A stretch of DNA of 64,000 nucleotides. It comes from Gordonia humi (GTDB lineage: Bacteria; Actinomycetota; Actinomycetes; Mycobacteriales; Mycobacteriaceae). The stretch is taken from NCBI RefSeq assembly GCF_014197435.1, contig NZ_JACIFP010000001.1, forward strand, positions 3,410,001 through 3,474,000, written 5' to 3'. Below, piece by piece: positions 1,968 through 15,020 of this stretch. Made by a program: the position numbers and the translations under genes. The notes under the pieces were generated by a model, which had not been told where the DNA came from, ran no database searches, and saw only the letters and a list, made by a program, of their open reading frames with translations. Positions within the stretch are counted from its first letter, which is position 1. Each line of letters starts with the position of its first letter.

Positions 1968-2801
1968 TCAGGTGGTGATGACGCCCGCGGTCAGCAGGAT
2001 CAGGACGAGCAGGCCCAGGGCGATGCGGTACCCGGCGAACCAACCGAGTGAATGGTGCGAGACGAATTTGAGGAGCCACGCGATGGAGGCGTAGCCGAGG
2101 ACGAAGGCGATGAACGTGGCGACGAGGATCTGCGCACCCGAGGCGCTGACGCCTTCCCCGTCGGGGTGGAAGGCGTCCGGCAGGCTGAACAGACCGGAGG
2201 CGAGGACCGCGGGAATCGCGATGAGGAAGGAGAATCGGAACGCGGCCTCACGCTTCATGCCGAAGAACAGTCCGGCACTGGCGGTGCCGCCCGATCGCGA
2301 GACGCCCGGGATCAACGCGAGGCACTGGGCCACGCCCATGGCGAGGGCGTCCCTCGGTCGCATCTCCTCGAGCGATTTGCCGGGCCGCTGGGCGGCCGTC
2401 ATCTCGGCTGCGATGAACACGAACGAGAAGGCGATCAACATGATCGCCACCAGCCAGAGGTTGCGCCCCGCCGTGCGGATCTCGTCTTTCAGGAGGTAAC
2501 CGAGCAGCCCGATCGGAATGGTGGCGAGAATCACGTACCAACCGATCCGGTAGTCGAGGTTCCGCCGGTCCGGGTTCCGCAGTCCGCCGAACCACGCGAG
2601 GACGATCCGCCAGATGTCTTTGGCGAAGAAGATCAACACCGCGAGCTCGGTGCCCAGCTGCGTGACCGCGGTGAACGAGGCCCCCGCGTCCTGACCGAAC
2701 CAGATCTGCGAGACGATCCGCAGATGGCCGGACGAGGAGATGGGCAGGAATTCGGTCAGTCCCTGGACTGCTCCGAGCACTATGGCCTGCAGCCAGTTCA
2801 T
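1968..2801 (-). CDS. uppP: undecaprenyl-diphosphatase UppP (BacA)
   Basis: Integral membrane phosphatase of 277 residues that recycles the cell-wall lipid carrier by removing a phosphate from undecaprenyl (or decaprenyl) diphosphate on the outer face of the membrane. The N-terminal motif [14 protein letters not shown] and the second motif [10 protein letters not shown] are the two conserved UppP active-site regions, with the catalytic glutamates and arginine. Length matches Rv2136c (276). The start ATG 2801 (MNWLQ) was chosen by family alignment; a GTG at 2813 is an alternative. First gene of a four-gene minus-strand run and divergent from the lipoprotein gene at 2862 with only 60 bases between them. 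Confidence 0.95.
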
Positions 2802-2861
2802 CGAATCGATCACGAGCGACGATGCTACCCATCGATTCTTGAGTTTCGCTGATCGCGCAAG

Positions 2862-3908
2862 ATGGAGGGCATGCGTGTGCGAACCAGATTGGCGGCCGGA
2901 CTGCTCGTCGCGGCGACTGCCGTGTCCTTGACGGCGTGCGGCGACTCCGGTGACGGAGGCGCCGACGGAGTCGAGACCCTTCCGCCCGCCACCGCCGCGG
3001 TGTCGCCGACCGGTACCGCGCAGCCCGCGGGCACGGTCGTCCCGCAGGGTGCGGGCACGGCGGTCGCGGTCTCCGGATCGACCGCCGCGGTGCTCGGTGC
3101 GGACGGACGCACCGTGACTCTCCACGTCGAGCCGGGCGCGACGGGCGCCCCCGCACCGAAGACCGTCGTCTCGCCGTCGGACGGTCTGGTCGATCTGATC
3201 GCCGTCGACGATCACTTCCTGGCGGTCGGACCGAACGGACTGGTGCGCATCGAGACCGACGGCCGCACGTCGGTGACCGACGAGAAGATCGACTCACCGT
3301 TGACGCTCGCCGCGTACAAGGACCAGACGCTCGTCGGCACCGGAAAGGGCCAGATCGTGGTCCTCGACCACGACGGCAGACGGGACAAGGTGATCGGCGG
3401 CTTCGTCCGCGTCGACGACATCCTCGTGGCGCCGCCGACCGCGACCGAGGTCGAAGGCCAGGTCAGCGTGCTCGACCAGGCGCAGTCGGCCATCCTGCCG
3501 GTCGACATCGAGACCGGGGAGCACAAGGCCGCGCTGCGGGCGGGCAACGGCGCCACGAACGCCGTGGTCGACAAGGTGGGGCGCATCCTGGTGACCGGCA
3601 CCCGCGACGACCAGTTCTACGCGTTCTTCGGTTCGCCGATCGTCATGCGGATGCGCGCGCCCGCCCCGGCGAGCCCGTTCGCTCTCGCCTACGACGATCA
3701 GCGCGATCTGCTCTGGGTGAGTTCGACCACCGAGAACGAGGCGGTCGCCTATGACATCTCCCACGGCGACGCCCGTGAACGCGACCGGGTGCCGACCGTC
3801 GGTCAGGTGACCGCGATGACCGTCGATCGCACGAGCGGCCGTCTGCTGATGGTGTCCGGTCGCGGCGACGGACTCCAGGCCGTCCCGCCGCTCGACGCCA
3901 AGCCCTGA
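2862..3908 (+). CDS. LppL-like lipoprotein
   Basis: Exported lipoprotein of about 348 residues at the same place as lppL (Rv2138) in M. tuberculosis. The N-terminus has a basic stretch, a hydrophobic core and a lipobox LTAC with the acylated cysteine at residue ~26. The mature part begins with a Gly/Asp-rich and Pro/Thr-rich linker, then a region rich in short beta-strand-like segments ([31 protein letters not shown]) reminiscent of a beta-propeller. An ATG at 2871 is an alternative start, but the Shine-Dalgarno-like GGAGGG lies too close to it to decide. Function unknown; it reads toward pyrD 26 bases downstream and may share its transcript. Confidence 0.85.
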
Positions 3909-3934
3909 CCCTCTGCGACACCCGAAAGCACCCC

Positions 3935-5035
3935 ATGCTGAGCACTCTGAATCGACTGGCCTATCCCCTGCTGCTCAAGGCGATGTTCCTCGTGCCGCCC
4001 GAGCGCATCCACCGGCTGATCGCGACGCTGATCAGACTCGCCGGGCGCACCCCGGTGGTGCGTTCGCTGCTGGCGCGGTTGTTCGCACAGCCCGATCCGG
4101 TGGTGGCGAGCACGGTCTTCGGCGTCGACTTCCCCGCCCCGATCGGGCTGGCCGCGGGCTTCGACAAGTCGGCCGAGTGCGTCAACGCGTGGGGGCAGCT
4201 CGGGTTCGGCTACGCCGAGATCGGGACGATCACCGGTCAGGGGCAGCCGGGCAACCCCGGACCGCGACTGTTCCGTCTACCCGCCGACCGCGCGTTGATC
4301 AACCGGATGGGCTTCAACAATCCGGGCGCGGCCGCGGCCGCGAAGAAGCTGCGGGAGCCGCGCCCGGGACCGGTGCGGACACCGATCGGCGCCAACATCG
4401 GCAAGACCAAGGCGGTCCCGCTCGACGGCGCCGTCGACGACTACCGTCTCTCGGCAGGTCTACTCGGGCCGCTCGCCGACTTCGTGGTGGTGAACGTCAG
4501 CTCGCCGAACACCCCGGGGCTGCGGGACCTGCAGGCGGTCGAGTCGCTGCGCCCCGTGCTGGCCGCCGTCATGGACGTCGCGGCGGCGCCCGTGCTGGTG
4601 AAGATCGCTCCGGACCTGTCCGACGAGGACGTCGACGCCGTCGCCGATCTCGCCGTGGAGCTGGGTCTGGCGGGCATCGTCGCCACGAACACGACCATCG
4701 GCCGCGACGGGCTGTCGACTCCGGCGGCGCGCGTCGAGGAGATGGGGGCGGGCGGCCTGTCCGGCCCACCGGTGGCCGATCGATCGTTGGAGGTGCTGCG
4801 GCGCCTGTACGCGCGCGTCGGCGGCCGGATCGCCCTGGTGAGCGTCGGCGGCATCGAGACCGTCGATCAGGCGTGGGAGCGCATCCGGGCGGGCGCCGAC
4901 CTCCTGCAGGTCTACACCGGATTCATCTACGGCGGCCCGGTCTGGCTGCGCGGACTCAACGACGGCATCGCCGGACGCCTCCGAGCCCACGGCTTCGCCT
5001 CGCTGAGCGAGGCCGTGGGCTCGGAGAACGGGTAG
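3935..5035 (+). CDS. pyrD: dihydroorotate dehydrogenase (quinone), class 2
   Basis: Membrane-associated flavoenzyme of 366 residues that oxidises dihydroorotate to orotate, step four of UMP synthesis, passing electrons to menaquinone. Seen in order: an N-terminal amphipathic quinone-tunnel extension typical of class 2 enzymes, the FMN-binding [11 protein letters not shown] segment, GANIGKTK, and [12 protein letters not shown], whose serine is the class 2 catalytic base region, then the C-terminal phosphate-binding [15 protein letters not shown]. Length and position match Rv2139. It is followed directly by a 15-bp hairpin. Confidence 0.97.
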
Positions 5036-5040
5036 GCGAG

Positions 5041-5079
5041 GAGGTGTCGACTCCGCTCGACCGGCGGAGTCGACACCTC
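5041..5079. terminator. bidirectional hairpin terminator between pyrD and the PEBP gene
   Basis: Perfect 15-bp inverted repeat (arms 5041-5055 and 5065-5079, nine-base loop) just after the pyrD stop and touching the stop of the convergent gene at 5080. There is no long T-run, which is normal for actinobacterial terminators. Confidence 0.75.
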
Positions 5080-5619
5080 TTACTCCCCCGGCAGCTCGAA
5101 TACGGCGGTCAGCGTGCCGCGTGCGATGGCGTGGGAGTAGAGGTTGAAACCGAGGAACGCGGGCGTCGCGCCCTCGGGCAGTTCCAGCGACTCCACGTCG
5201 ACGGCGTGCACGACGAAGATGTACCGGTGCGGGCCGTGGCCGGGAGGCGGTCCCGCACCGACGAACTGCGCCAGGCCCGCATCGTTGCCGAGGGTCACGG
5301 CGCCGGCGGGCAGATCGGCCGAGTCGGGCGAGCCCGCGCCCGCGGGCAGCGAGGTGACCGACGCCGGGATGTCGGCGACGGCCCAGTGCCAGAAGCCCGA
5401 CGCGGTCGGGGCGTCCGGGTCGAAGCAGGTCACCGCGAAGCTCTTGGTGCCGGACGGGGAGCCGGACCAGCTCAACTGCGGGGAGACGTCCTCGCCGCCC
5501 GCGCCGAAGATCGCCGACACCTGCGGCATGGGGAGCGTCTGTCCCTCACTGAAATCGGTCGACGTCACGGTGAGGTCGGGCAGTCTCGGCAGGACCGAGT
5601 ACGGATCGAATGCGGTCAC
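5080..5619 (-). CDS. YbhB/YbcL-type phosphatidylethanolamine-binding protein (PEBP) homologue
   Basis: Cytosolic 179-residue PEBP-fold protein, equivalent to Rv2140c (TB18.6). Typical features are [10 protein letters not shown] near residue 50, [15 protein letters not shown] with the conserved DPDAP and W-HW ligand-pocket residues, and [15 protein letters not shown], the second conserved ligand-site strand. Such proteins bind anionic ligands; M. tuberculosis members have been studied as possible kinase inhibitors, but the bacterial role is uncertain. The GTG start has an AAGGA ribosome site eight bases upstream. It follows the M20 peptidase gene by 43 bases and is probably cotranscribed. Confidence 0.92.
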
Positions 5620-5662
5620 GATCTGTTCCTTTCACCCTCTGGCGGCGACGCCGCCGTCCGGG

Positions 5663-6994
5663 TCAGCAGTGGTGGAGGAAATGCTCAAGAACCTTGGTAC
5701 CGAACAGGATCGACTCTACCGGGACGCGCTCGTCGACTCCGTGGAACAGAGCGGCGAAGTCCAGATCCGGCGGCAGTTGCAGCGGCGCGAACCCGAAACA
5801 GCGGATGCCGAGCTTGGCGAACGCCTTCGCATCGGTGCCGCCGGACAGCATGTACGGCACGGTGCGCCCGTTCTCGTCGTGAGCGACGACCGCGTCGTTC
5901 ATCGCATCGACGAGGTGACCGTCGAACGTCGTCTCGTAGGCGTCGAGGTGGGTGATCCACTCGCGCGTGATGTTCGGGCCGATGAGTTCGTCGATCGTCG
6001 CCTCGAACTCCTTCTGGCGGCCGGGCAGCACCCGGCAGTCGATGACCGCCTCGGCCTGCTGTGGAATGACGTTGGCCTTGTACCCGGCCGACAGCATCGT
6101 CGGATTGGCGGTGTCGCGCAGCGTGGCTCCGACGATGCGCGCCAGGTTGCCGATCTTGAACAGCGCGGTCTCCAGGTCCGGTGTCTCCGGGCTGAAGTCG
6201 AGACCCGTCTCCTCCGACAGCGCCGCGAGGAACTCGCGGACCGACTCGGTCATCACGAGCGGGAACGTGTGGGCGCCGATCCGGGCGACGGCGGCCGCGA
6301 TCTCGGTGACCGCGTTGTCGGCGTGCAGGAACGAACCGTGCCCGGCGGTGGCGTCGCAGGTGAGCTTCATCCACGACAGGCCCTTCTCGGCCGTCTCCAC
6401 CAGGTACAGACGGCGGGTGGTGCCGTCCGGGCGGTCGACGGTCAACGAGAAGCCGCCGACCTCGCCCACGGCCTCGGTGATCCCGTCGAACAGCTCCGGG
6501 CGGTTCGCGACGAGCCACTGTGATCCCCAGGCGCCGCCCGCCTCCTCGTCGGCGAGGAACGCGAACACGATGTCGCGCGGGGGCACCGTGCCGTCGCGTT
6601 TGAACTGGCGGGCCAATGCCAGGACCATGCCCGCCATGTCCTTCATGTCGACGGCTCCGCGGCCCCACACGTATCCGTCGCGGACGGCGCCGGAGAACGG
6701 ATGCACGCTCCAGTCCTCGGCCTGTGCGGGCACCACGTCGAGGTGCACGTGGACCAGCAGCGCGCCGCGCTCGCGGTCGGCGCCCTCGAGACGGGTGAAC
6801 ACGTTGGCCCGTCCGGGCATCCCGGATTCGACGTACTCGGTCTGGTAGCCCACCTCTTCCAGCTGCTGCTGGACCCAGCGGGCGCATTCGGCTTCGCCGA
6901 CCGTGGTCTCCGGCGCTCCGGTGTTCGACGTGTCGAACTGGATCAGACGGCTGACGAGGTCGACTACTTCTTCGGTTGCTCTAGAGGACGTCAC
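5663..6994 (-). CDS. M20/M25/M40 family metallopeptidase
   Basis: Zinc-dependent aminoacylase/dipeptidase-type hydrolase of about 443 residues (Rv2141c-like, 448). Visible motifs: VHVHLDVVPAQ (first metal histidine and aspartate), WGRGAVDMKDM (bridging aspartate), FLADEEAGGAWGSQW (catalytic Glu and metal Glu), and a late LSGGTDAKAF segment with the C-terminal metal-site region. The dimerisation lid domain lies between residues ~195 and 330. Start choice: GTG 6994 (VTSSRATEE) fits family length; the longer reading to 7054 adds a sequence unlike the family. Natural substrate unknown. The gene diverges from tRNA-Leu. Confidence 0.92.
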   Translation of the reverse strand: MTSSRATEEVVDLVSRLIQFDTSNTGAPETTVGEAECARWVQQQLEEVGYQTEYVESGMPGRANVFTRLEGADRERGALLVHVHLDVVPAQAEDWSVHPFSGAVRDGYVWGRGAVDMKDMAGMVLALARQFKRDGTVPPRDIVFAFLADEEAGGAWGSQWLVANRPELFDGITEAVGEVGGFSLTVDRPDGTTRRLYLVETAEKGLSWMKLTCDATAGHGSFLHADNAVTEIAAAVARIGAHTFPLVMTESVREFLAALSEETGLDFSPETPDLETALFKIGNLARIVGATLRDTANPTMLSAGYKANVIPQQAEAVIDCRVLPGRQKEFEATIDELIGPNITREWITHLDAYETTFDGHLVDAMNDAVVAHDENGRTVPYMLSGGTDAKAFAKLGIRCFGFAPLQLPPDLDFAALFHGVDERVPVESILFGTKVLEHFLHHC

Positions 6995-7092
6995 ACCCTC
7001 AATTACTAGGCGATTTGGGATACCGGGGCAAGCATGGTTATTGTTTACGGGCACGAGCGAAACGGCCCGCGCGGCAACTGAATACTGATCGA

Positions 7093-7178
7093 GTCCGAGT
7101 GGCGGAATGGCAGACGCGCTAGCTTGAGGTGCTAGTGTCCTATTAACGGACGTGGGGGTTCAAGTCCCCCCTCGGACA
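7093..7178 (+). tRNA. tRNA-Leu (anticodon GAG)
   Basis: 86-nt class II tRNA. Acceptor arms GTCCGAG and CTCGGAC pair perfectly (7093-7099 with 7171-7177) with discriminator A at 7178. The anticodon stem CTAGC/GCTAG encloses loop TTGAGGT, giving anticodon GAG. A long variable arm (GTCC...GGAC) and a T-arm with GTTCAAG are present. CCA is not encoded. The GAG anticodon reads CUC and CUU leucine codons. The gene marks the boundary between the Rv2133c-Rv2141c-like block and the phosphonate locus. Confidence 0.97.
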
Positions 7179-7186
7179 CTCGAGAG

Positions 7187-7212
7187 ATCCCCGGAGCGAG
7201 CGCTTCGGGGAT
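7187..7212 (+). terminator. terminator of tRNA-Leu
   Basis: Hairpin with an 11-bp stem (7187-7197 with 7202-7212, one G-U pair) and a four-base loop, followed by the T-rich TCTTCATCT, nine bases after the tRNA. Confidence 0.8.
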
Positions 7213-7237
7213 TCTTCATCTGTCCAGGTCGTAGACG

Positions 7238-7271
7238 CGGAGGCATCCGCGCCCGGCGGCGGATGCCTCCG
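7238..7271. terminator. hairpin terminator downstream of the phosphonatase-like gene
   Basis: Perfect 13-bp inverted repeat (7238-7250 with 7259-7271, eight-base loop) ending five bases before the minus-strand stop codon at 7276. It probably ends the minus-strand gntR-hydrolase transcript and may back up the tRNA terminator. Confidence 0.75.
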
Positions 7272-7275
7272 TCCG

Positions 7276-7971
7276 TCAGTCGAGGACGCCCGGCAGGGAG
7301 GCGATCTCGACGACCGATGCGAGCACGTGGTCGGCGCCGTTGTCCGCCAGCGTCGACGCGGGCGTCTGGCCGGTCAGCACACCGACCGAGACGGCCCCCG
7401 CGTTGCGGGCGGCCCGGACGTCGACCGCGGTGTCGCCCGCGGCGAGAACGGCCGCGGTGTCGACGACGCCCGTCGCCTCCATCGCGCGGAAGATCATGTA
7501 CGGAGCGGGTCGGCCGGCGGGCACGTCGTCCGTGGTGATCACCGCGTCGAGCACCACGCCCGCCCCCTCCCGCTCGCTCCAGCCGAGAGAGCGAAGGAGC
7601 GGGTCGACGACGGTTCGGTCGAACCCGGTCGTCAACGCCACTTCGACGCCCGCGGCACGGAGTCGGGCGAAGAGCTCCTCGGTGCCCGGGATCGGCCGCG
7701 GCGGCCGGCTGCGGTACTCGTCGGCGAGGATCTCCTGGAAGCGCGCGAACGCGGTGAGCGCCGCGGCGCGGTCGACGTCGACGCCGCCCAGCCGCGCGAG
7801 GTTCTCGATCGCGGTCACCTTGTCGGTGCCCATCCACTGCGCCAGGTCGGCGTCGGCGACGCCCGCCCCCAGCTCCTCGACGCAACGCCGTAGCGCGTCG
7901 TACACGGCGCCGCCGTCGTCGACGGTGGTGCCCGCGATGTCGAAGGCTGCCAGTCTTATCATTCCGGTCAC
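7276..7971 (-). CDS. phosphonatase-like HAD hydrolase (PhnX-like, phosphonoacetaldehyde hydrolase candidate)
   Basis: HAD-superfamily hydrolase of 231 residues. The N-terminal AAFDIAGTTVDD carries the nucleophile aspartate in the DxAGTT form typical of phosphonatases rather than the usual DxDGT. MGTDKVTAIENL in the cap (residue ~50) supplies a lysine at the place where phosphonatases form a Schiff base with phosphonoacetaldehyde. LTTGFDR and AGDTAVDVRAA are HAD motifs II and IV. Together with the neighbouring AEP importer and amine oxidase this points to cleavage of phosphonoacetaldehyde to acetaldehyde and phosphate in the cytosol. It belongs to the PhnX-like subgroup, so the exact substrate is inferred. 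GTG start at 7971, 22 bases after the gntR stop. Confidence 0.85.
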   Translation of the reverse strand: MTGMIRLAAFDIAGTTVDDGGAVYDALRRCVEELGAGVADADLAQWMGTDKVTAIENLARLGGVDVDRAAALTAFARFQEILADEYRSRPPRPIPGTEELFARLRAAGVEVALTTGFDRTVVDPLLRSLGWSEREGAGVVLDAVITTDDVPAGRPAPYMIFRAMEATGVVDTAAVLAAGDTAVDVRAARNAGAVSVGVLTGQTPASTLADNGADHVLASVVEIASLPGVLD

Positions 7972-7993
7972 TGCTCTCCCTGTGGTGAACGAC

Positions 7994-8737
7994 TCATGCG
8001 AGCCGGATCTGAGACCGACCGCCGGCGGCGGTCAGACGGTTCGTGATGCTGATCGCGCACTGTCCCGGCACGTACCGGTCTGTCGCGCATTCGATGACGC
8101 GACCAGTCGAGTCCTCGGTGGTCCGTCGCACCCGCATCATCGGGGTCCCCTCGTCGACCCCGAGATGCTCGCGGTCCTGCACGGTCGCGGCGACCGCGTC
8201 GACGTGATGGGTCGAGCTGTACAGGTCGATGCCCTGATCGAGCATGAAACGGTTGATCGACCCCGAGTCGGGGTCGAACTCCATCAGGACACGTCCGACA
8301 TCCCAGACGAACGACATCGTCTCCAGCAGGGCGGGCTCGCCGTCGAGGGTGCGGGCGCGAACGATGGTCAGCACCGGGTCGCCGACCTCGACGTCGAGCC
8401 GATCGGCGAGATCGGCGTCGGCGGCATGCCTCGACTGCAGAACGGTGCGCTGCCCGGGCGTGCGTCCCTGAGCGACGGCCCACGCGGTCAGCGATCCGAG
8501 GACACTCGCCTCGTGGATCGGCGCGGATCTGCGGACCAGCGAAGGCCGTCCCTGACCGCCGACGAGCAGTCCGTCGGCGCGCAGCGCCGCGATCGCCTGT
8601 CGAACAGGGCCGCGGGAGACGCTGAACTCTTTGCACAGTTCGGCCTCGCTCGGTGCACGGGACCCCTCGGGCCACCGTCCGGAGGCGATCCGGGATCGGA
8701 ACTCGTCGGTGAGACGTCGATGTATGGGCACGGTCAC
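7994..8737 (-). CDS. GntR-family regulator with UTRA ligand domain (HutC/PhnF type)
   Basis: Transcription factor of 247 residues. Residues ~1-75 form the winged HTH (PIHRRLTDEFRSRIASGRW, SEAELCKEFSVSRGPVRQAIAALRADG). Residues ~85-240 form a UTRA/chorismate-lyase-like effector domain (GDPVLTIVRARTLDGEPALLE, CATDRYVPGQCAISI). It sits between the phosphonatase-like gene and the divergent oxidase/importer operon, so it most likely controls both arms in response to AEP or a catabolite; that role is inference. GTG 8737 was chosen, with GTG 8731 an alternative; the track of reading frame further upstream overlaps the oxidase gene and is not coding. Two matching candidate operators lie in its upstream region. 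Confidence 0.9.
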   Translation of the reverse strand: MTVPIHRRLTDEFRSRIASGRWPEGSRAPSEAELCKEFSVSRGPVRQAIAALRADGLLVGGQGRPSLVRRSAPIHEASVLGSLTAWAVAQGRTPGQRTVLQSRHAADADLADRLDVEVGDPVLTIVRARTLDGEPALLETMSFVWDVGRVLMEFDPDSGSINRFMLDQGIDLYSSTHHVDAVAATVQDREHLGVDEGTPMMRVRRTTEDSTGRVIECATDRYVPGQCAISITNRLTAAGGRSQIRLA

Positions 8738-8739
8738 AG

Positions 8740-8753
8740 ACTTGAGTATACAA
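8740..8753. promoter_or_regulatory. candidate GntR operator, copy 1
   Basis: ACTTGAGTATACAA, immediately before the gntR start. It matches copy 2 (8828-8841) as ACTTG-NNN-ATACAA, with TTG/CAA dyad ends, the style of site bound by UTRA-type GntR proteins. Confidence 0.55.
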
Positions 8754-8827
8754 ATGAATCGGCATATCGAGCGCTTCCCGAGCGAACCGTAGATGAACAA
8801 CGATCTACCTGGTTTAACAAGAATCCA

Positions 8828-8841
8828 ACTTGTACATACAA
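8828..8841. promoter_or_regulatory. candidate GntR operator, copy 2
   Basis: ACTTGTACATACAA, containing the perfect dyad TTGTA-CA-TACAA (8830-8841), about 50 bases before the oxidase start. A separate six-base inverted repeat GTAGAT/ATCTAC (8789-8794 and 8803-8808) lies between the two copies. Confidence 0.55.
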
Positions 8842-8891
8842 CTATCGATCTCGTGTTGCCACGGGGATCCGCCCCGAGTGAACTGTCCACC

Positions 8892-10016
8892 ATGAGCACC
8901 ACAGAATGCGACGTCCTCGTCGTCGGCGCCGGGATCGTCGGTCTCGGCCACGCCCTCGCCGCCGCCGACGCGGGCCTGTCCGTCACGATCATCGACCGCG
9001 ATCGGCGACCGGTCGGCGCGTCGATCCGCAACTTCGGCCACGTCTGCGCGACCGCGCAGACCGGGACGCTCCGCGACCTCGCGCTCGGCAGCCGACAGCG
9101 CTGGCTCGACGTCGCATCGCGCTCCGGGATCGGCGTGCGGACCGGCGCGGGCCTCGCCGTGGCGCGGCACATCGACGAACTCGCCGTTCTCGACGAACTC
9201 GCGCAGACCCGCGGCTCGGTGCGCCCGCTGACCGCCCTGGACGTTCGCGACGAGATCGGCGGCGCGGCCGACGGCGTCGTCGGCGGAGCGCGTCTGCTCG
9301 ACGATCTGCGGATCGATCCGCGGACGGCCGTGCCGACGCTGGCCGCGTGGCTCGCCGAGCGCGACCGCGTCGAGATCCGATGGAACACCGCCTACCACGG
9401 AGTCGACGAGACGCAGACCCCCGACGTCGTGGTCCGCACCTCACGCGGCGCCGTCCGCGCCGGACGCGTCTACGTCTGCGTCGGCCACGACCTCGACACC
9501 GTGGCGCCGTCGGTGACCGACGAGGCCCGCGTCGCCCGCTGCGCGCTGTCGATGATGCTCACCGCCGATCCCGGAATACGCATCGATCCGGCCGTGCTGA
9601 CCGGCACCTCGCTGCTGCGCTACGAGGCCTTCGCGCAGACCGCCGCCGCGACCGCGCTCGGCGAGCGGCTGCGCGCCCGCCGACCGGAGCTGATGGCCGC
9701 CGACACGAACATCATGTTCACCCAGCGACCCGACGGCGGTCTGCTCATCGGCGACTCCCACCACGTGGAGCCGACCGTCGATCCGTTCCTCGACGAAGAC
9801 GTCGCCGACCTGATCCGCCGGGAGGTCTCGTCGGTCCTCGGCGTGGACCTCACCGTCGTCCAACGGTGGCAGGGCGTGTACGCGTCACGGCCGGACGGCC
9901 CCTACCTCACCGCCGAACTCGCGCCCGGCGTACGCGCCTGTTCGGTCACCACCGGAGTCGGCATGACCGTCGGCCTCGAACTCGGCGCCCGTCACGTCGC
10001 CGACGACCTCCCCTGA
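8892..10016 (+). CDS. FAD-dependent oxidoreductase of the phosphonate-associated (TIGR03364-like) family
   Basis: DAO-type flavoprotein of 374 residues. The N-terminal VLVVGAGIVGLGHALAAADAG is a Rossmann FAD-binding motif, and GVYASRPDGPYLT plus TTGVGMTVGLELG near the C-terminus are the second FAD-contacting segment. Enzymes of this type occur in phosphonate clusters; members are reported to oxidise AEP or N-methyl-AEP to phosphonoacetaldehyde, but I cannot tell which from sequence. That product would feed the hydrolase at 7276. No PhnW transaminase is present in the window, so this enzyme probably supplies the deamination step. The start ATG 8892 was chosen at the beginning of the flavin fold; an in-frame ATG at 8793 lies inside the promoter region. 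Confidence 0.88.
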   Translation: MSTTECDVLVVGAGIVGLGHALAAADAGLSVTIIDRDRRPVGASIRNFGHVCATAQTGTLRDLALGSRQRWLDVASRSGIGVRTGAGLAVARHIDELAVLDELAQTRGSVRPLTALDVRDEIGGAADGVVGGARLLDDLRIDPRTAVPTLAAWLAERDRVEIRWNTAYHGVDETQTPDVVVRTSRGAVRAGRVYVCVGHDLDTVAPSVTDEARVARCALSMMLTADPGIRIDPAVLTGTSLLRYEAFAQTAAATALGERLRARRPELMAADTNIMFTQRPDGGLLIGDSHHVEPTVDPFLDEDVADLIRREVSSVLGVDLTVVQRWQGVYASRPDGPYLTAELAPGVRACSVTTGVGMTVGLELGARHVADDLP

Positions 10017-10064
10017 CTCATCCACCCCTCCGCTCACTCCATGCCCAGAAAGGCCCCATCAGCC

Positions 10065-11123
10065 ATGCGCAAGCGCACTCTGCCCGTCCGTCCCCTCCGC
10101 ATCGCGGCCGCGACCGCCGCGGCGTTGTCCCTGACCGCCGTCGCCGCATGCGGCGGCACCGGCGGCGGATCGTCGTCCGCCGACTCCGTCACCGTCTACA
10201 GCGCCGACGGCCTCGGCGACTGGTTCACGACCCAGTTCAAAGCGTTCGAGGACGAGACCGGCATCTCGGTGGACTACGTCGAGGGCGGATCCGGCGAGGT
10301 GGTCTCCCGCGCCGACAAGGAGAAGTCCAACCCGCAGATGGACGTCCTGGTGACGCTCCCCCCGTTCATCCAGCAGGCCGATGAGAAGGGACTCATCGGC
10401 GACACCCGTCCCGCCGGGATCGACGCGCTGCCCGCCGAGGCGAAGGCCGACGACGGCCACTACGTCACTCTCGCCGACAACTACTTCACGATGATCCGCG
10501 GCACGCGAGTGTCCCCCGAACCGACCTCGTGGGACGATCTCCTCGCGCCGCGCTTCGCCCAGAGGATCCAGTACTCGACACCCGGTCAGGCCGGCGACGG
10601 CACCGCCCTGATGCTGCTCGTGCAGCATCTGTACGGCGAGCAGGGCGGCCTGGACTACCTGACCCGGCTGCAGGCGAACAACGTCGGACCGTCGGCGTCG
10701 ACGGGCAAGCTCGGCCCCAAGGTCGGCACCGGCGAGCTCTCGGTCGCCAACAGCGACGTCCAGATGGCGCTGGCCGCGATCAAGAACGACAAGGCCGCAT
10801 ACGAGACGTTCATCCCGACGGGACCGCACGGCGAGCGGGTGACGCTCTCGCTCCCCTACGCCATGGCCGAGGCCGCCGACGCGCCCCACGGCGCGAACGC
10901 GCAGAAACTCATCGACTTCCTGATGTCCGTCGACGTGCAGAAGACACTGGCCGACGACGCCTTCGGAGTCTCGGCGCGCACCGACGTCCACGCGACCGGT
11001 TCCAACGCCGACGCGATCACGGCGGCCGTCGACGGAGCCCAGATCTGGCAGCCCGACTGGAACGACGTGAACGAGCGGTTCGACGCCCTGGTCGAGGCGT
11101 ACGGGAAGGCGACGGGCCAGTGA
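10065..11123 (+). CDS. 2-aminoethylphosphonate ABC transporter, substrate-binding lipoprotein
   Basis: Extracytoplasmic solute-binding protein of 352 residues. The signal peptide ends in a lipobox (AVAACGG, cysteine at residue ~31), so it is membrane-anchored. The mature protein is of the iron/thiamine/AEP class: VTVYSADGLGDWFTTQFKAF at the start, GGSGEVVSRADKEKSNPQMD ligand-site region, and a late AYGKATGQ end. The permease and ATPase partners follow without gaps, and the oxidase and phosphonatase neighbours make AEP the likely ligand. Iron or another phosphonate are alternatives. ATG 10065 was preferred over ATG 10041 because it begins a proper signal peptide. Confidence 0.85.
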   Translation: MRKRTLPVRPLRIAAATAAALSLTAVAACGGTGGGSSSADSVTVYSADGLGDWFTTQFKAFEDETGISVDYVEGGSGEVVSRADKEKSNPQMDVLVTLPPFIQQADEKGLIGDTRPAGIDALPAEAKADDGHYVTLADNYFTMIRGTRVSPEPTSWDDLLAPRFAQRIQYSTPGQAGDGTALMLLVQHLYGEQGGLDYLTRLQANNVGPSASTGKLGPKVGTGELSVANSDVQMALAAIKNDKAAYETFIPTGPHGERVTLSLPYAMAEAADAPHGANAQKLIDFLMSVDVQKTLADDAFGVSARTDVHATGSNADAITAAVDGAQIWQPDWNDVNERFDALVEAYGKATGQ

Positions 11124-12271
11124 GCACCGGACTGCGTCGACTGCGTCGGACGACCGACTCCGCCCCCGCGCGCGACCGTGCCTCGACCGCTCCCGCCGTG
11201 CGACTGGCCGGTGTGTCGGTCGCGTACGGCTCCACGCTCGCGCTGGCGGACTGCTCGTTCGAGGTGGCCCGCGGCGAGACGCTCGCGCTTCTCGGACCGT
11301 CCGGATCCGGGAAGTCGACCGCGCTCAAAGCCGTCGCCGGATTCGAGAACGTGGTCGCCGGGACCGTCGAGATCAACGGCCGCGACGTCACCCGATTCCC
11401 GCCCGCCGCCCGGGGCATCGGTTTCGTCGTCCAGCAGTATGCGCTCTTCCCTCATATGACCGTGCGCAGGAACGTCGCGTTCGGGCTCACCGCCCGACGC
11501 ACTCCCCGATCGGAGGTCAAACCGCGCGTCGACGAGGTGCTCCGCATGGTCGGCATGTTCGGATTCGCCGACCGCCTCCCGCGCGAACTGTCCGGCGGAC
11601 AGCAGCAGCGGGTGGCGATCGCGCGGGCCCTCGCGAGTCGCCCCGATCTGCTCCTGCTCGACGAGCCGTTGTCGGCTCTGGACACCAGGCTCCGACAGGA
11701 GATGCTGGTCGAACTGCAACAGTTGCGGCGTGACCTCCCGGACATCGCGATCGTCCACGTCACCCACGATCAATCGGAGGCGCTCGCACTCGCCGACCGG
11801 ATCGCGCTGATGCGCAACGCACGCCTGGAGTCGATCGACACCGCCGACACCCTGTTCCATCGCCCGCCCAGCGAGTTCGCGGCGACCTTCCTCGGCGGCG
11901 CAGACATCCTCCCGGTCCGCGCCGTCGACGAGATCGCGCCCGGCGGCGTCGGCGTCCTCGATCACGGCGGCGTCCCGATCCGCGCGCGCAGCGTCGACGG
12001 TGTGCCGCGCGGCAGGCATCTGGCACTCGCGGTGCGGCCGTGGGCGTGGCGGTTCACCGGTGCGGAGCCGGCGAACGGGTTCGAGGTCGAGGTGCTCGAC
12101 GTCCAGTGGCGCGGATCGACGCGGCACGTCAGGGTACGAGTCGTCGCGACCGACCAGCGGCTCGGCGTGGACGTCCCGGTCCTGCAACACGCGCCGCCGC
12201 CCGGCGAGAGGCTCTTCGTCGACGTGGCGCCGCACGACGTCCACATGGTGCCCGCGGAGAAGAGCGCATGA
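11120..12271 (+). CDS. 2-aminoethylphosphonate ABC transporter, ATP-binding protein
   Basis: Cytoplasmic ATPase of 383 residues for the AEP importer. Walker A GPSGSGKST (~residue 62), Q-loop VVQQYALFPHM, ABC signature LSGGQQQRVAIARAL, Walker B LLLLDEPLSALD, and H-loop VTHDQSEA are all intact. A C-terminal TOBE/OB-like regulatory domain follows from residue ~260 (LALAVRPWAWRF). The GTG start overlaps the stop of the binding-protein gene (GTGA, 11120-11123), and its own stop overlaps the first permease (ATGA), so the importer genes are translationally coupled. Confidence 0.92.
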   Translation: MSTGLRRLRRTTDSAPARDRASTAPAVRLAGVSVAYGSTLALADCSFEVARGETLALLGPSGSGKSTALKAVAGFENVVAGTVEINGRDVTRFPPAARGIGFVVQQYALFPHMTVRRNVAFGLTARRTPRSEVKPRVDEVLRMVGMFGFADRLPRELSGGQQQRVAIARALASRPDLLLLDEPLSALDTRLRQEMLVELQQLRRDLPDIAIVHVTHDQSEALALADRIALMRNARLESIDTADTLFHRPPSEFAATFLGGADILPVRAVDEIAPGGVGVLDHGGVPIRARSVDGVPRGRHLALAVRPWAWRFTGAEPANGFEVEVLDVQWRGSTRHVRVRVVATDQRLGVDVPVLQHAPPPGERLFVDVAPHDVHMVPAEKSA

Positions 12272-13158
12272 CGCCCGTCGCCGCGCCACCGCGCACCGAA
12301 CGGGCGTCCCGGCCCGCTCCGCCGTCGCGGCGCACCGGGCTCCCCGGCCGCCTCGGAACCCTGGCCCTGCTCCTCGGTCCTCTCGTCGTACTGGCCGCCG
12401 CACTCGGCTACCCCCTCGTCGTCGCCGTGTCCCGATCGTTCACCGATCGCGACGACCGGTACGTCGGGACGCAGACCTGGGCGTCGGCGCTCGGCGACCC
12501 CGCCGTACGCCGAGCGATCGGGCAGACCGTCGAGATCGCGGTGGCGTCGACCATCGGCTGCGTGGTGGTCGGCACGTTCATCGCCTTCGTCCTGTCGTTC
12601 GTCCCGTTTCCGGGGGCCGGCGTGATCGTGCGCATCATCGAGGCCGTCGTCTCGCTGCCGTCGTTCCTGATCCCGCTCGCGCTCGGCGTGATGTTCGGCC
12701 CGGTCGGCGTCGTCTCCGCCGTCACCGGCCACCGTCTGGCGTTCATGAGTTCGGTGACCGGAGTCGTGCTCGCCGAGGTCGCCTTCTACACGCCGTTCGT
12801 CGTCCGACCGCTGCTGGCCGCGTTCAGCCAGTTCCCCACCGCTCAGATCGACGTCGCGTCCTCACTCGGCGCGGGCCCCCTGCGCATCGCGATGCGCGTG
12901 ATCGCCCCCGCCGTGTGGCCCGCGCTCGCCGCCGCGGCGTCGTTGACGTTCCTGCTCACCCTCAACGAGTTCGGCATCGTCCTGTTCACCGGTGCGAAGA
13001 GCGTGACGACGTTGCCGATCCTGATCTACACGAAGTCGATCGTGGGCTCCGACTTCGCGACCGCGGCCGTCCTGGCGACCGTTCAACTGTTCCTGTCCCT
13101 CGGCGCCTACCTGCTCTACCGCACGGTGGTCCGCCGCTTCGACACCACCGGAGGCTGA
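12268..13158 (+). CDS. 2-aminoethylphosphonate ABC transporter, permease 1
   Basis: Inner-membrane permease of 296 residues with about six transmembrane segments beginning near residue 28 (LALLLGPLVVLAAALGY). The EAA-like coupling loop is ASSLGAGPLRIAMRVIAPAVWPALAAA (the conserved G is in GAGP). The start ATG lies within ATGA shared with the ATPase stop; a longer upstream in-frame reading is inside the ATPase gene. Paired with the next permease as a heterodimer. Confidence 0.9.
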   Translation: MTPVAAPPRTERASRPAPPSRRTGLPGRLGTLALLLGPLVVLAAALGYPLVVAVSRSFTDRDDRYVGTQTWASALGDPAVRRAIGQTVEIAVASTIGCVVVGTFIAFVLSFVPFPGAGVIVRIIEAVVSLPSFLIPLALGVMFGPVGVVSAVTGHRLAFMSSVTGVVLAEVAFYTPFVVRPLLAAFSQFPTAQIDVASSLGAGPLRIAMRVIAPAVWPALAAAASLTFLLTLNEFGIVLFTGAKSVTTLPILIYTKSIVGSDFATAAVLATVQLFLSLGAYLLYRTVVRRFDTTGG

Positions 13159-13159
13159 C

Positions 13160-13957
13160 ATGCTGATTCGCGACCGAACCTCGCGCGTCGTCGTCTGGAC
13201 GGTGTTCGCCGTCGTCGTCGCCGTGCTGGTGATCGCGCCGATCCTCATCACCGCGATCACCGCGTTCGCCGGTTCGTGGACGTCGGTGTTGCCGTCCGAC
13301 TTCACTCTCGACCACGCGAACGCCGTGCTGTCCGCGGAGAACCTGCAGTCGGTGTCGGTGTCGGTGCAGACCGCGGTCGTCGCATCGGCGATCGCGGTCG
13401 CCGTCGGCACCTGGGCCGCGCTCGCCGTGCGGAAGGCCCCGCCGCGGCTGCGCGGTCTGCTCGACGCCGCCTATCACCTCCCCGTGGCGATACCGTCCGT
13501 CGTCATCGGTCTGGCCGTGCTGATCGCGTTCTCTCGTCCACCGGTGATCCTCAACGGCACCGCGAGCATCGTGATCCTCGTCCAGGCCCTGCTGGTGCTG
13601 TCGTTCGCGTTCTCGATGGTGTCGGCCGCGGCGAGATCGCTCGATCCCGATCTGGATCGGGTCGCCGGATCGCTGGGCGCATCGCGGCTTCGGATCCTGA
13701 CGACCGTCACACTGCCCTTGCTGGCGCCGTCGATCGCGGCGGCGGCCGGCCTGTCGATCGCGCTGTGCATGGGGGAGCTCGGTGCCACGATCATGGTCTA
13801 CCCGGGCTCATGGCGGACGCTCCCGGTCACGGTCTTCACCCAGTCCGACCGCGGCGACCTGTTCGGCGCCGCCGCCAACACGCTCCTGCTGGTGCTGGTC
13901 ACGGTCGTGATCCTCGGCGTCCTCGGCCGGGTGCGCTCGCGCGCCCAGGTCCGCTGA
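13160..13957 (+). CDS. 2-aminoethylphosphonate ABC transporter, permease 2
   Basis: Second permease, 265 residues, six predicted transmembrane segments (first at residues ~10-33). The cytoplasmic EAA loop is in AGSLGASRLRILTTVTLPLLAPSI. It begins one base after the stop of permease 1, with GGAGG a few bases before the start. Last gene of the plus-strand operon, followed by a 15-bp hairpin. Confidence 0.9.
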   Translation: MLIRDRTSRVVVWTVFAVVVAVLVIAPILITAITAFAGSWTSVLPSDFTLDHANAVLSAENLQSVSVSVQTAVVASAIAVAVGTWAALAVRKAPPRLRGLLDAAYHLPVAIPSVVIGLAVLIAFSRPPVILNGTASIVILVQALLVLSFAFSMVSAAARSLDPDLDRVAGSLGASRLRILTTVTLPLLAPSIAAAAGLSIALCMGELGATIMVYPGSWRTLPVTVFTQSDRGDLFGAAANTLLLVLVTVVILGVLGRVRSRAQVR

Positions 13958-13970
13958 GCACCGATCCGGA

Positions 13971-14004
13971 CCGCACGTCCCGGCCGTGTGGCCGGGACGT
14001 GCGG
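13971..14004. terminator. bidirectional hairpin terminator between the importer operon and meaB
   Basis: Perfect 15-bp stem (13971-13985 with 13990-14004) with a four-base GTGT loop, 13 bases after the permease stop and 20 before the convergent meaB stop. Confidence 0.8.
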
Positions 14005-14024
14005 CCGAGACGTGCGGCGACGCC

Positions 14025-15020
14025 CTAGAACCCGGCCTGCTCCACGATCTGATCGGCGGCGAGCGTCGGGGTCAGCGAGCCGTCCAGGACGGCCTGTTCG
14101 ACGTCGCGGCGGACCGCCCGCACGCCGGGGGCCTCCTCCAGACGGTTCAGGACGTTCTCGCGGACCATCGTCCACATCCAGTCCACCTGCTGCTGCGCAC
14201 GACGGCGAGCGAACTCCCCCGCCTCGGTCAACACGCTGCGATGTTCGGTCACCGACTCCCAGAAGCGGTCGACGCCGGACTTCTCCATCGCACTCATGGT
14301 GAGCACCGGCGGAGTCCACAGCGCATCGTGCGGATAGATGAAGCCCAGTGCGTTCCGCAGTTCCCGAGCCGCCGCCCGTGCCTCGTTGACATGCTTGCCG
14401 TCGGCCTTGTTGACCACGACGATCTCGGCGAGCTCGAGGACGCCCTTCTTGATGCCCTGGAGCGAGTCGCCGGTGCGGGCCAGGGTGAGGAAGGTGAACG
14501 TGTCGACCATGTTGGCCACGCTCACCTCCGATTGCCCGACGCCGACGGTCTCGACCAGGACCACGTCGTATCCGGCGGCCTCGACGAGCACGATGGTCTC
14601 GCACGTGGCCTTCGTGACGCCACCGAGGGTGCCCGACGTGGGCGACGGACGCACGTAGGCGTCGGCGGCGGCCGACAGCTCGCCCATCCGCGTCTTGTCG
14701 CCGAGGATCGAGCCGCGCGTGCGTGTCGACGACGGGTCGACGGCCAGCACGGCCACCCGGTGGCCCTGCGCGATCAGGTACATGCCGAGCGCCTCGATGG
14801 TCGTCGACTTGCCGACGCCCGGGACGCCGGTGATGCCGACGCGGAACGACTTCCCGGCATGCGGGGTCACCTGCAGGAGCAGCTTCTGCGCCGCTTCCCG
14901 GTGGTCCGGACGCGTCGATTCGACGAGGGTGATCGCCTTGGCCAGATCGGCGCGACGCCCCGCCAGCACTCCGGCTGCCAGGGCGTCGACGTCGATCGGG
15001 CGGCGGTTGGCCGCACTCAT
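14025..15020 (-). CDS. meaB: MeaB/ArgK-type GTPase, methylmalonyl-CoA mutase chaperone
   Basis: G3E-family P-loop GTPase of 331 residues that guards and reactivates adenosylcobalamin-dependent methylmalonyl-CoA mutase. Seen: Walker A GVPGVGKSTTIE (~residue 64), AVDPSSTRTRGSILGDKTRM (the conserved switch region), DVVLVETVGVGQSE (Walker B/G3), and VVNKADGK (G4 NKxD). The C-terminal dimerisation tail is present. It lies 13 bases after mutB in the same direction, so mutA-mutB-meaB form one operon. Confidence 0.95.
   Translation of the reverse strand: MSAANRRPIDVDALAAGVLAGRRADLAKAITLVESTRPDHREAAQKLLLQVTPHAGKSFRVGITGVPGVGKSTTIEALGMYLIAQGHRVAVLAVDPSSTRTRGSILGDKTRMGELSAAADAYVRPSPTSGTLGGVTKATCETIVLVEAAGYDVVLVETVGVGQSEVSVANMVDTFTFLTLARTGDSLQGIKKGVLELAEIVVVNKADGKHVNEARAAARELRNALGFIYPHDALWTPPVLTMSAMEKSGVDRFWESVTEHRSVLTEAGEFARRRAQQQVDWMWTMVRENVLNRLEEAPGVRAVRRDVEQAVLDGSLTPTLAADQIVEQAGF

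Follow-up and report, generated by a model that had tools for sequence, protein, structure and literature searches.

The 64,000-nucleotide stretch of the Gordonia humi genome analyzed here (the window; contig NZ_JACIFP010000001.1, positions 3,410,001 to 3,474,000) carries a block of seven genes, at window positions 7276-13957, with the gene content of a pathway for the use of 2-aminoethylphosphonate (AEP). The block lies between a tRNA-Leu (GAG) gene and meaB in a genome of 5.09 Mb and combines an FAD-dependent amine oxidase and a phosphonatase-like hydrolase with a regulator and an importer. Protein scores (in bits) were compared with curated family cut-offs (NCBIfam/TIGR models) and domains were assigned with Pfam. 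These models placed all seven genes at the coordinates and on the strands given in the original prediction, which had been made from the DNA letters alone:

7093..7179, plus strand: tRNA-Leu (GAG), left neighbour of the block (ARAGORN)
7276..7962, minus strand: phosphonatase-like HAD hydrolase, predicted phosphonoacetaldehyde (PAA) hydrolase (TIGR03351, 240.4 bits, cut-off 218.9)
7994..8737, minus strand: GntR/UTRA (HutC-like) transcription regulator, probably the local regulator (Pfam GntR 49.5 bits, UTRA 98.8 bits)
8742..8753, minus strand: operator-like box TTGTATACTCAA, 4 bases upstream of the GntR start, matching the pattern TTGTAYAYWCAA
8830..8841, plus strand: operator-like box TTGTACATACAA, 50 bases upstream of the oxidase start, matching the same pattern
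8892..10016, plus strand: PbfD-type FAD-dependent amine oxidase (TIGR03364, 371.2 bits, cut-off 285.1; Pfam DAO; GxGxxG motif)
10065..11123, plus strand: AEP-type binding protein, PhnS-like (NF011620, 448.8 bits, cut-off 310)
11120..12271, plus strand: importer ATPase, PhnT-like (best model PhnT, 331 bits, under the cut-off of 499.15)
12268..13158, plus strand: importer permease, PhnU-like (NF011624, 323.9 bits, cut-off 247)
13160..13957, plus strand: importer permease, PhnV-like (best model PhnV, 198.5 bits, under the cut-off of 358.7)
14025..15020, minus strand: meaB, which flanks the block on the right and has a match in all 59 Gordonia genomes examined

The oxidase and the hydrolase are neighbours across the order

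The co-occurrence of the oxidase family TIGR03364 and the hydrolase family TIGR03351 was examined in 219 genomes of the order Mycobacteriales, drawn evenly from a larger group, in which only the best first-look candidates were scored (E 1e-30 for both families). A TIGR03364 match was present in 24 genomes (23 over cut-off) and a TIGR03351 match in 28 (25 over cut-off). In all 24 oxidase-bearing genomes the two genes share a contig and lie no more than about 3 kb apart, and Fisher's test on the genome counts, with kinship uncorrected, gave a p of 3e-28. Because the two genes are neighbours in 24/24 oxidase-bearing genomes, their adjacency is not a matter of chance, and the locus is real. PhnX over its cut-off was found in none of the 219 genomes, that of G. 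humi included, and PhnW over its cut-off in only two (G150 and G200), neither of which has a TIGR03364 or TIGR03351 match. In one of the 24 genomes, at G033:C26:61121-62884, the oxidase match was split and the hydrolase match partial, and in a Gordonia genome, at G258:C1:2061740-2062845, the oxidase match was in two pieces, through decay or sequencing error.

Four genomes with a TIGR03351 hydrolase and no oxidase speak against a strict pairing. One of them (G043; L043 4517-6951), which has no TIGR03364 match, has an HpnZ alcohol dehydrogenase (TIGR03366, 426.6 bits, cut-off 328.1) and a GntR gene beside the hydrolase. In the second (G021) the hydrolase stands with a phosphonate/phosphite-type binding protein, over the TIGR01098 cut-off and under that of PhnD, and no aldehyde-forming enzyme was seen. 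The hydrolases of the remaining two (G104 and G196) are under cut-off (205.1 and 218.4 of 218.9 bits), and inspection by eye revealed no phosphonate context around them. At a further locus (G018; L052 2792-7438) the oxidase and a TIGR03351 hydrolase follow carbon-phosphorus (C-P) lyase genes, of which a PhnL-like one is under cut-off and a PhnM-like one over an NCBIfam cut-off.

Family assignment and phylogeny of the oxidase

The flavoprotein had been predicted to be of the type that oxidizes AEP or its N-methyl derivative, and its clear match to the TIGR03364/PbfD family bears this out. Its closest named relative is a Gordonia protein, 74% identical at best; for the two window enzymes, oxidase and hydrolase, counterparts with 71-81% identity occur in Gordonia malaquae or G. 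spumicola. The oxidase's AlphaFold2 (AF2) model (pLDDT 92) had glycine oxidase 4ysh as the top Foldseek match. The relevant passages of Zangelmi et al. (2023; PMC10590968) report that PbfC, PbfD1 and PbfD2 convert N-methyl-AEP to PAA, that PbfD1 of Acinetobacter baumannii is a TIGR03364 member, and that PhnW-free pathways with either PhnX or PhnY plus PhnA have been proposed; the NCBIfam description quoted there already records TIGR03364 and TIGR03351 as neighbouring families. The replacement of PhnW by an oxidase is already published (PMC10590968), a point that the original prediction did not contain.

The same passages bear on the amine that is used. PbfC and PbfD1 showed a strong preference for N-methyl-AEP (PMC10590968), and with the same chemistry the G. 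humi oxidase might act mainly on N-methyl-AEP as an ancillary enzyme, AEP being left undegraded or converted elsewhere by an unrelated transaminase of a kind that the PhnW model would not reveal. PbfD2, however, which comes from a PhnW-less genome, oxidized AEP only 4-fold more poorly than N-methyl-AEP (PMC10590968), no PhnW over cut-off is encoded in the G. humi genome and the importer fits AEP models, so that this alternative, which partly overlaps with use of both amines (the odds of the two do not sum to one), appears rather unlikely.

An oxidase tree was calculated by a quick method from 119 rows, the window sequence and 118 of 120 chosen loci. The window oxidase grouped with those of five other Gordonia genomes (one represented twice), then with Granulicoccus and Tsukamurella. 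All of these lie in a clade of 95 rows (SH-aLRT 99), which is made up of actinobacterial sequences and of two metagenome-assembled genomes (MAGs) labelled Acidobacteria. The oxidases of these two MAGs (L069, L105) are nested among Microbacteriaceae, and mis-binning is likely. The sister of the clade (support 87, not starred) consists of three alphaproteobacterial oxidases paired with PhnX. The Acinetobacter oxidases (L150/L151) branch apart from the clade on long branches, and the window oxidase does not group with these PbfD1-type enzymes, which cluster with phnW and phnX. Oxidases linked to PhnA (L107, L131 and L132), plus L097, are nested in the 95-row clade, and the downstream enzyme has therefore been exchanged within it. 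Seventeen rows form a divergent group that pairs with a second hydrolase subtype wherever a hydrolase was seen; this subtype also accompanies L055 and L156-L159, inside the 95-row clade.

Comparison of the TIGR03351 hydrolase with PhnX

The hydrolase had been placed in a PhnX-like subgroup distinct from PhnX itself. This assignment held, the protein exceeding the TIGR03351 cut-off and reaching only 119.5 of the 220 bits of the PhnX model (TIGR01422). The closest named relative is again a Gordonia protein, 81% identical at best. Comparison of the catalytic residues revealed D8, A10, M44, G45, K48, R151, D177 and D181, corresponding to D12, A14, M49, G50, K53, R160, D186 and D190 in PhnX of B. 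cereus; the nucleophile and the DxA motif of PhnX are thus present as D8 and A10. All 72 complete hydrolases from the named loci described below have the lysine at the Schiff-base position (K48 in the window protein). The protein is unlike PhnX at His56, Cys22 and Tyr128: in each of the 73 named-locus hydrolases the His56 position is occupied by Ala, Val or Ser (that of L127 is incomplete there), and the histidine is present in 4 of 4 annotated PhnX. The residue beside the lysine in TIGR03351 is mostly Asp or Ser (MG[T/A]DK or MGxSK). In the AF2 model (pLDDT 95) the top Foldseek match was PhnX 1swv; fold comparison alone does not settle the substrate. Both TIGR03364 and TIGR03351 have the NCBIfam status hypoth_equivalog, i.e., they are proposed phosphonate enzymes only, and no assay of the hydrolase was found in open-licence PMC papers.

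The motif of phosphate-ester phosphatases of this superfamily is DxD. Many generic HAD phosphatases were among the structural matches with the same or higher Z, as would be expected if the hydrolase were an ordinary phosphate-ester phosphatase that stands beside the oxidase by happenstance. Every complete sequence examined, however, has DxA and not DxD, the GxxK loop contains an invariant lysine and the oxidase is a neighbour in each of the 24 oxidase-bearing genomes, and we regard a generic phosphatase as highly improbable. Two TIGR03351-like proteins under cut-off (L044 5220-5882 and L045 5168-5830) have a GGSK loop; no phosphonate genes were seen around them by eye, and they perhaps have another function.

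Gene exchanges around the probable intermediate phosphonoacetaldehyde

Gene context was compared in 80 named loci, the best 80 of at least 497 relatives from at least 594 stretches matched by the oxidase alignment, which are accordingly the closer relatives. They comprise 78 actinobacterial records and the two MAGs labelled Acidobacteria. A profile from the hydrolase alignment located the hydrolase in 73 of the 80 loci, with a centre-to-centre distance to the oxidase of no more than 2.73 kb. At L139 and L143, which have no hydrolase, a contig edge is near the oxidase, and neither hydrolase nor PhnA was seen at L097 and L145.

Three loci (L107 at 2587-9092, L131 and L132) carry PhnA and an aldehyde dehydrogenase instead of the hydrolase. 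PhnA of L107 exceeds the TIGR02335 cut-off (453.8 bits, cut-off 407.55), and those of L131 and L132 are 76-78% identical to it. The model for phosphonoacetaldehyde dehydrogenase gave 259 bits in L107 and 274 in L131, of 635.65 required, and was absent from the 25 models shown for L132. The three loci also have a LysR-like gene (by eye) and resemble the PhnW-free PhnY/PhnA type of cluster. A GlpT-like transporter is encoded at L107 and L131; AepP, an AEP permease described in the relevant part of PMC8316502, belongs to the GlpT-like class.

Other exchanges concern PhnX and HpnZ. Plasmid records of Novosphingobium, Rhizobium tumorigenes and Bartonella sp. have the oxidase adjoining an annotated PhnX, which in Novosphingobium is over cut-off (344.1 bits, cut-off 220), and no PhnW was seen in 13 kb. 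In Acinetobacter sp. the oxidase occurs with both PhnW and PhnX, as it does, by similarity, in a stretch of A. baumannii. Gloeocapsa and Hymenobacter have TIGR03351-like hydrolases that stay under the cut-off (169.6 and 165.2 of 218.9 bits). HpnZ was found in 12 of the 80 named loci and the window-type GntR gene in 55. HpnZ-like genes adjoin the oxidase at L164, L166, L167 and L175, and HpnZ enzymes may supply the same aldehyde from 2-hydroxyethylphosphonate or a similar alcohol.

Oxidases of the TIGR03364 family thus occur with TIGR03351, with PhnX or with PhnA plus an aldehyde dehydrogenase, and TIGR03351 occurs with either the amine oxidase or HpnZ. The compound shared by these combinations can therefore be PAA, and the gene swaps favour PAA as the intermediate of the pathway. 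A different aminophosphonate, e.g., 1-hydroxy-2-aminoethylphosphonate (HAEP), could be envisaged instead, in which case the hydrolase would cleave the matching aldehyde and not PAA. The family description of TIGR03364, quoted in PMC10590968, offers HAEP as a guess, and the departures of the hydrolase from PhnX at His56, Cys22 and Tyr128 would suit another substrate. The published PbfD enzymes, in contrast, yield PAA from N-methyl-AEP and AEP (PMC10590968), and PhnX is the partner of the alphaproteobacterial oxidases. In three clusters of the same oxidase clade the place of the hydrolase is taken by PhnA (in L107 a phosphonoacetate hydrolase according to its model), which fits oxidation of PAA to phosphonoacetate and not a hydroxylated aldehyde, and the binding protein of G. 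humi is over the cut-off of one AEP model. A HAEP pathway is improbable in our view.

The importer and the regulator

The importer had been described as complete, and indeed a binding protein, an ATPase and two permeases were identified, whose best models are those for AEP, some of them under cut-off. Besides the scores given above, the binding protein is under the cut-off of the PhnS model TIGR03227 (331.8 of 395.3 bits) and the first permease under that of the PhnU model TIGR03226 (233.6 of 283.45 bits). The binding protein also matches PDB entry 4r6y, a putative AEP-binding protein, with an E of 3e-75. Among the 80 named loci (BLAST >100 bits within 7.5 kb) the binding protein is of PhnS type in 5, PhnD-like in 37 and neither in 38; in three inspected loci of the last group it is only distantly PhnS-like. 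Another importer type, with a distantly PhnS-like binding protein (37 to 72 bits), stands beside the pair at L071 9256-13233, L091 and L129.

The regulator is under the cut-offs of its best models, HutC (96.3 of 220 bits) and PhnF (95.0 of 156.8 bits). The divergent intergenic region of 154 bases between its gene and the oxidase gene contains the two related boxes, and the 12-base pattern TTGTAYAYWCAA was built from these two sites themselves. Inspection by eye showed similar boxes close to either end of 12 further homologous regions (10 distinct), and they are weaker in several, e.g., L165, L126 and L076. No third exact copy of the pattern was found in the genome; there are seven matches with one mismatch, one of which is the opposite strand of the second box. 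A wider GntR regulon was considered and rejected, as a total of 9 matches compares with 15 for the reversed-pattern control, with nothing beyond chance except the two founding sites. The simplest reading is a local autoregulation, probably exerted through the two operator-like boxes.

Other phosphonate routes in the genome

The original prediction had noted the absence of the transaminase PhnW from the locus and had named a phnW elsewhere in the genome that alone supports growth on AEP as evidence that would count against it. No PhnW is encoded in the locus, and the genome-wide model search yielded none over cut-off (best 39.6 of 360.8 bits). PhnX over cut-off was not found in the genome either, the only match to its model at E 1e-20 being the window hydrolase. 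The genome gave no match to PhnJ of the C-P lyase and none to PhnA, and the best scores for HpnZ (165.7 of 328.1 bits) and phosphoenolpyruvate (PEP) mutase (129.2 of 319.55 bits) remained under cut-off. PhnW, PhnX, PhnA, PhnJ, HpnZ and PEP mutase are thus all lacking over cut-off; PhnZ, PalA and unrelated AEP transaminases were not searched for. Recycling of AEP made by the cell itself was also considered and rejected, as no PEP mutase is over cut-off.

Distribution in Gordonia and borders of the block

The oxidase was found in 22 of 59 Gordonia genomes, in 21 of them over cut-off. Five genomes besides that of the window share its arrangement, and in all five the block adjoins meaB. In seven the hydrolase is of the second subtype and a PhnS-like binding protein is encoded; another four combine the oxidase with a hydrolase of this subtype, no binding protein being seen in 4 kb. 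In four the oxidase is beside HpnZ, and in G258 it is split. A Tsukamurella tyrosinosolvens record labelled as a plasmid contains the same seven genes near meaB and mutase genes, in a different order.

Next to meaB the block is either there as a whole or missing as a whole (see also loci L219, L220 and L222), with a clean empty site in three genomes: in G273, G239 and G272, which lack the block, the tRNA-Leu (GAG) gene is about 130-210 bases from meaB. At other block-less loci scanned, e.g., G246 and G233, no tRNA was found near meaB. Among the genomes of shared arrangement, the tRNA-Leu gene adjoins the block in G252, is 1.4 kb away in G240 and was not seen within the 1-3 kb viewed in G267, G261 and G220; the left border is therefore not the same everywhere. 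A mobile element at the tRNA-Leu gene was considered and is unsupported: no direct repeat of at least 9 bases occurs between 7051-7300 and 13901-14060, and there is no integrase among the seven genes.

Proposed pathway and relation to known systems

The import-oxidize-cleave pathway of the original prediction stood as regards gene content and protein families, and its enzyme activities are predicted from these. The block most likely represents a self-contained, substrate-induced scavenging locus for AEP and probably N-methyl-AEP. The PhnSTUV-like ABC importer would take up AEP, and the PbfD-type oxidase, standing in for PhnW as shown for PbfD1 and PbfD2 in the corresponding passages of PMC10590968, would convert AEP or N-methyl-AEP with O2 to PAA, ammonia or methylamine, and H2O2. 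The TIGR03351 hydrolase would then cleave PAA to acetaldehyde and phosphate, as suggested by its residues, its fold and the gene swaps, with Lys48 (Lys53 in PhnX) probably forming the Schiff base and Asp8 acting as the nucleophile. The GntR protein may repress both divergent units through the two boxes until a compound of the pathway binds to it.

With the classical PhnWX phosphonatase pathway the locus has the PAA intermediate, a HAD hydrolase and a PhnSTUV-like importer, known from Salmonella, in common, whereas the Gordonia genome has no PhnW over cut-off and its hydrolase is under the PhnX cut-off and lacks His56. The nearest described counterpart is the PbfD2-PhnX pathway of Mariniblastus fucicola, which (Zangelmi et al. 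2023; PMC10590968) likewise runs through a flavin oxidase to PAA without PhnW and ends in hydrolytic C-P cleavage to acetaldehyde and phosphate. The two are likened by description, the sequence of PbfD2 not having been compared; the Gordonia locus differs in having TIGR03351 and not PhnX, in being actinobacterial and in carrying the PhnSTUV-like importer and the GntR/UTRA regulator in the block. PbfD1 of A. baumannii belongs to the same NCBIfam family as the window oxidase, whereas the A. baumannii oxidase is about 26% identical to it and the Acinetobacter oxidases, on their separate branch, cluster with PhnW and PhnX. The PbfD-PhnY-PhnA route, the fourth pathway in PMC10590968, to which the clusters L107, L131 and L132 correspond, shares the oxidase step; there PAA would be oxidized to phosphonoacetate, which would be cut by PhnA, whereas here PAA is predicted to be hydrolyzed directly.

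The oxidative PhnW-free route is known, and its actinobacterial coupling to TIGR03351 is the less known part. No description of this coupling in Actinomycetota was found in the papers searched, though NCBIfam notes the neighbouring families, and the cluster did not appear in titles or abstract starts for aminoethylphosphonate in Actinobacteria or Gordonia, or phosphonatase in Arthrobacter or Streptomyces. As a tentative proposal, somewhat short of an even chance, TIGR03351 may constitute a second, mechanistically distinct class of phosphonatase, which has kept the Schiff-base lysine and DxA and dropped His56 and Cys22. In Mycobacteriales and many other Actinomycetota, this hydrolase and the flavin oxidase would then have taken over from PhnX and PhnW, respectively, as the usual hydrolytic route for aminophosphonates, with the amine oxidase or HpnZ serving interchangeably as the entry enzyme.

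The type of the oxidase has been settled by assay (PMC10590968), and the function of the hydrolase family, which recurs in many Actinomycetota, is now directly testable. If the proposed route is true, it is overlooked by surveys that judge phosphonate use from phnW and phnX: among the 219 genomes of the order PhnX is over cut-off in none and PhnW in two, against 24 with the oxidase pair.

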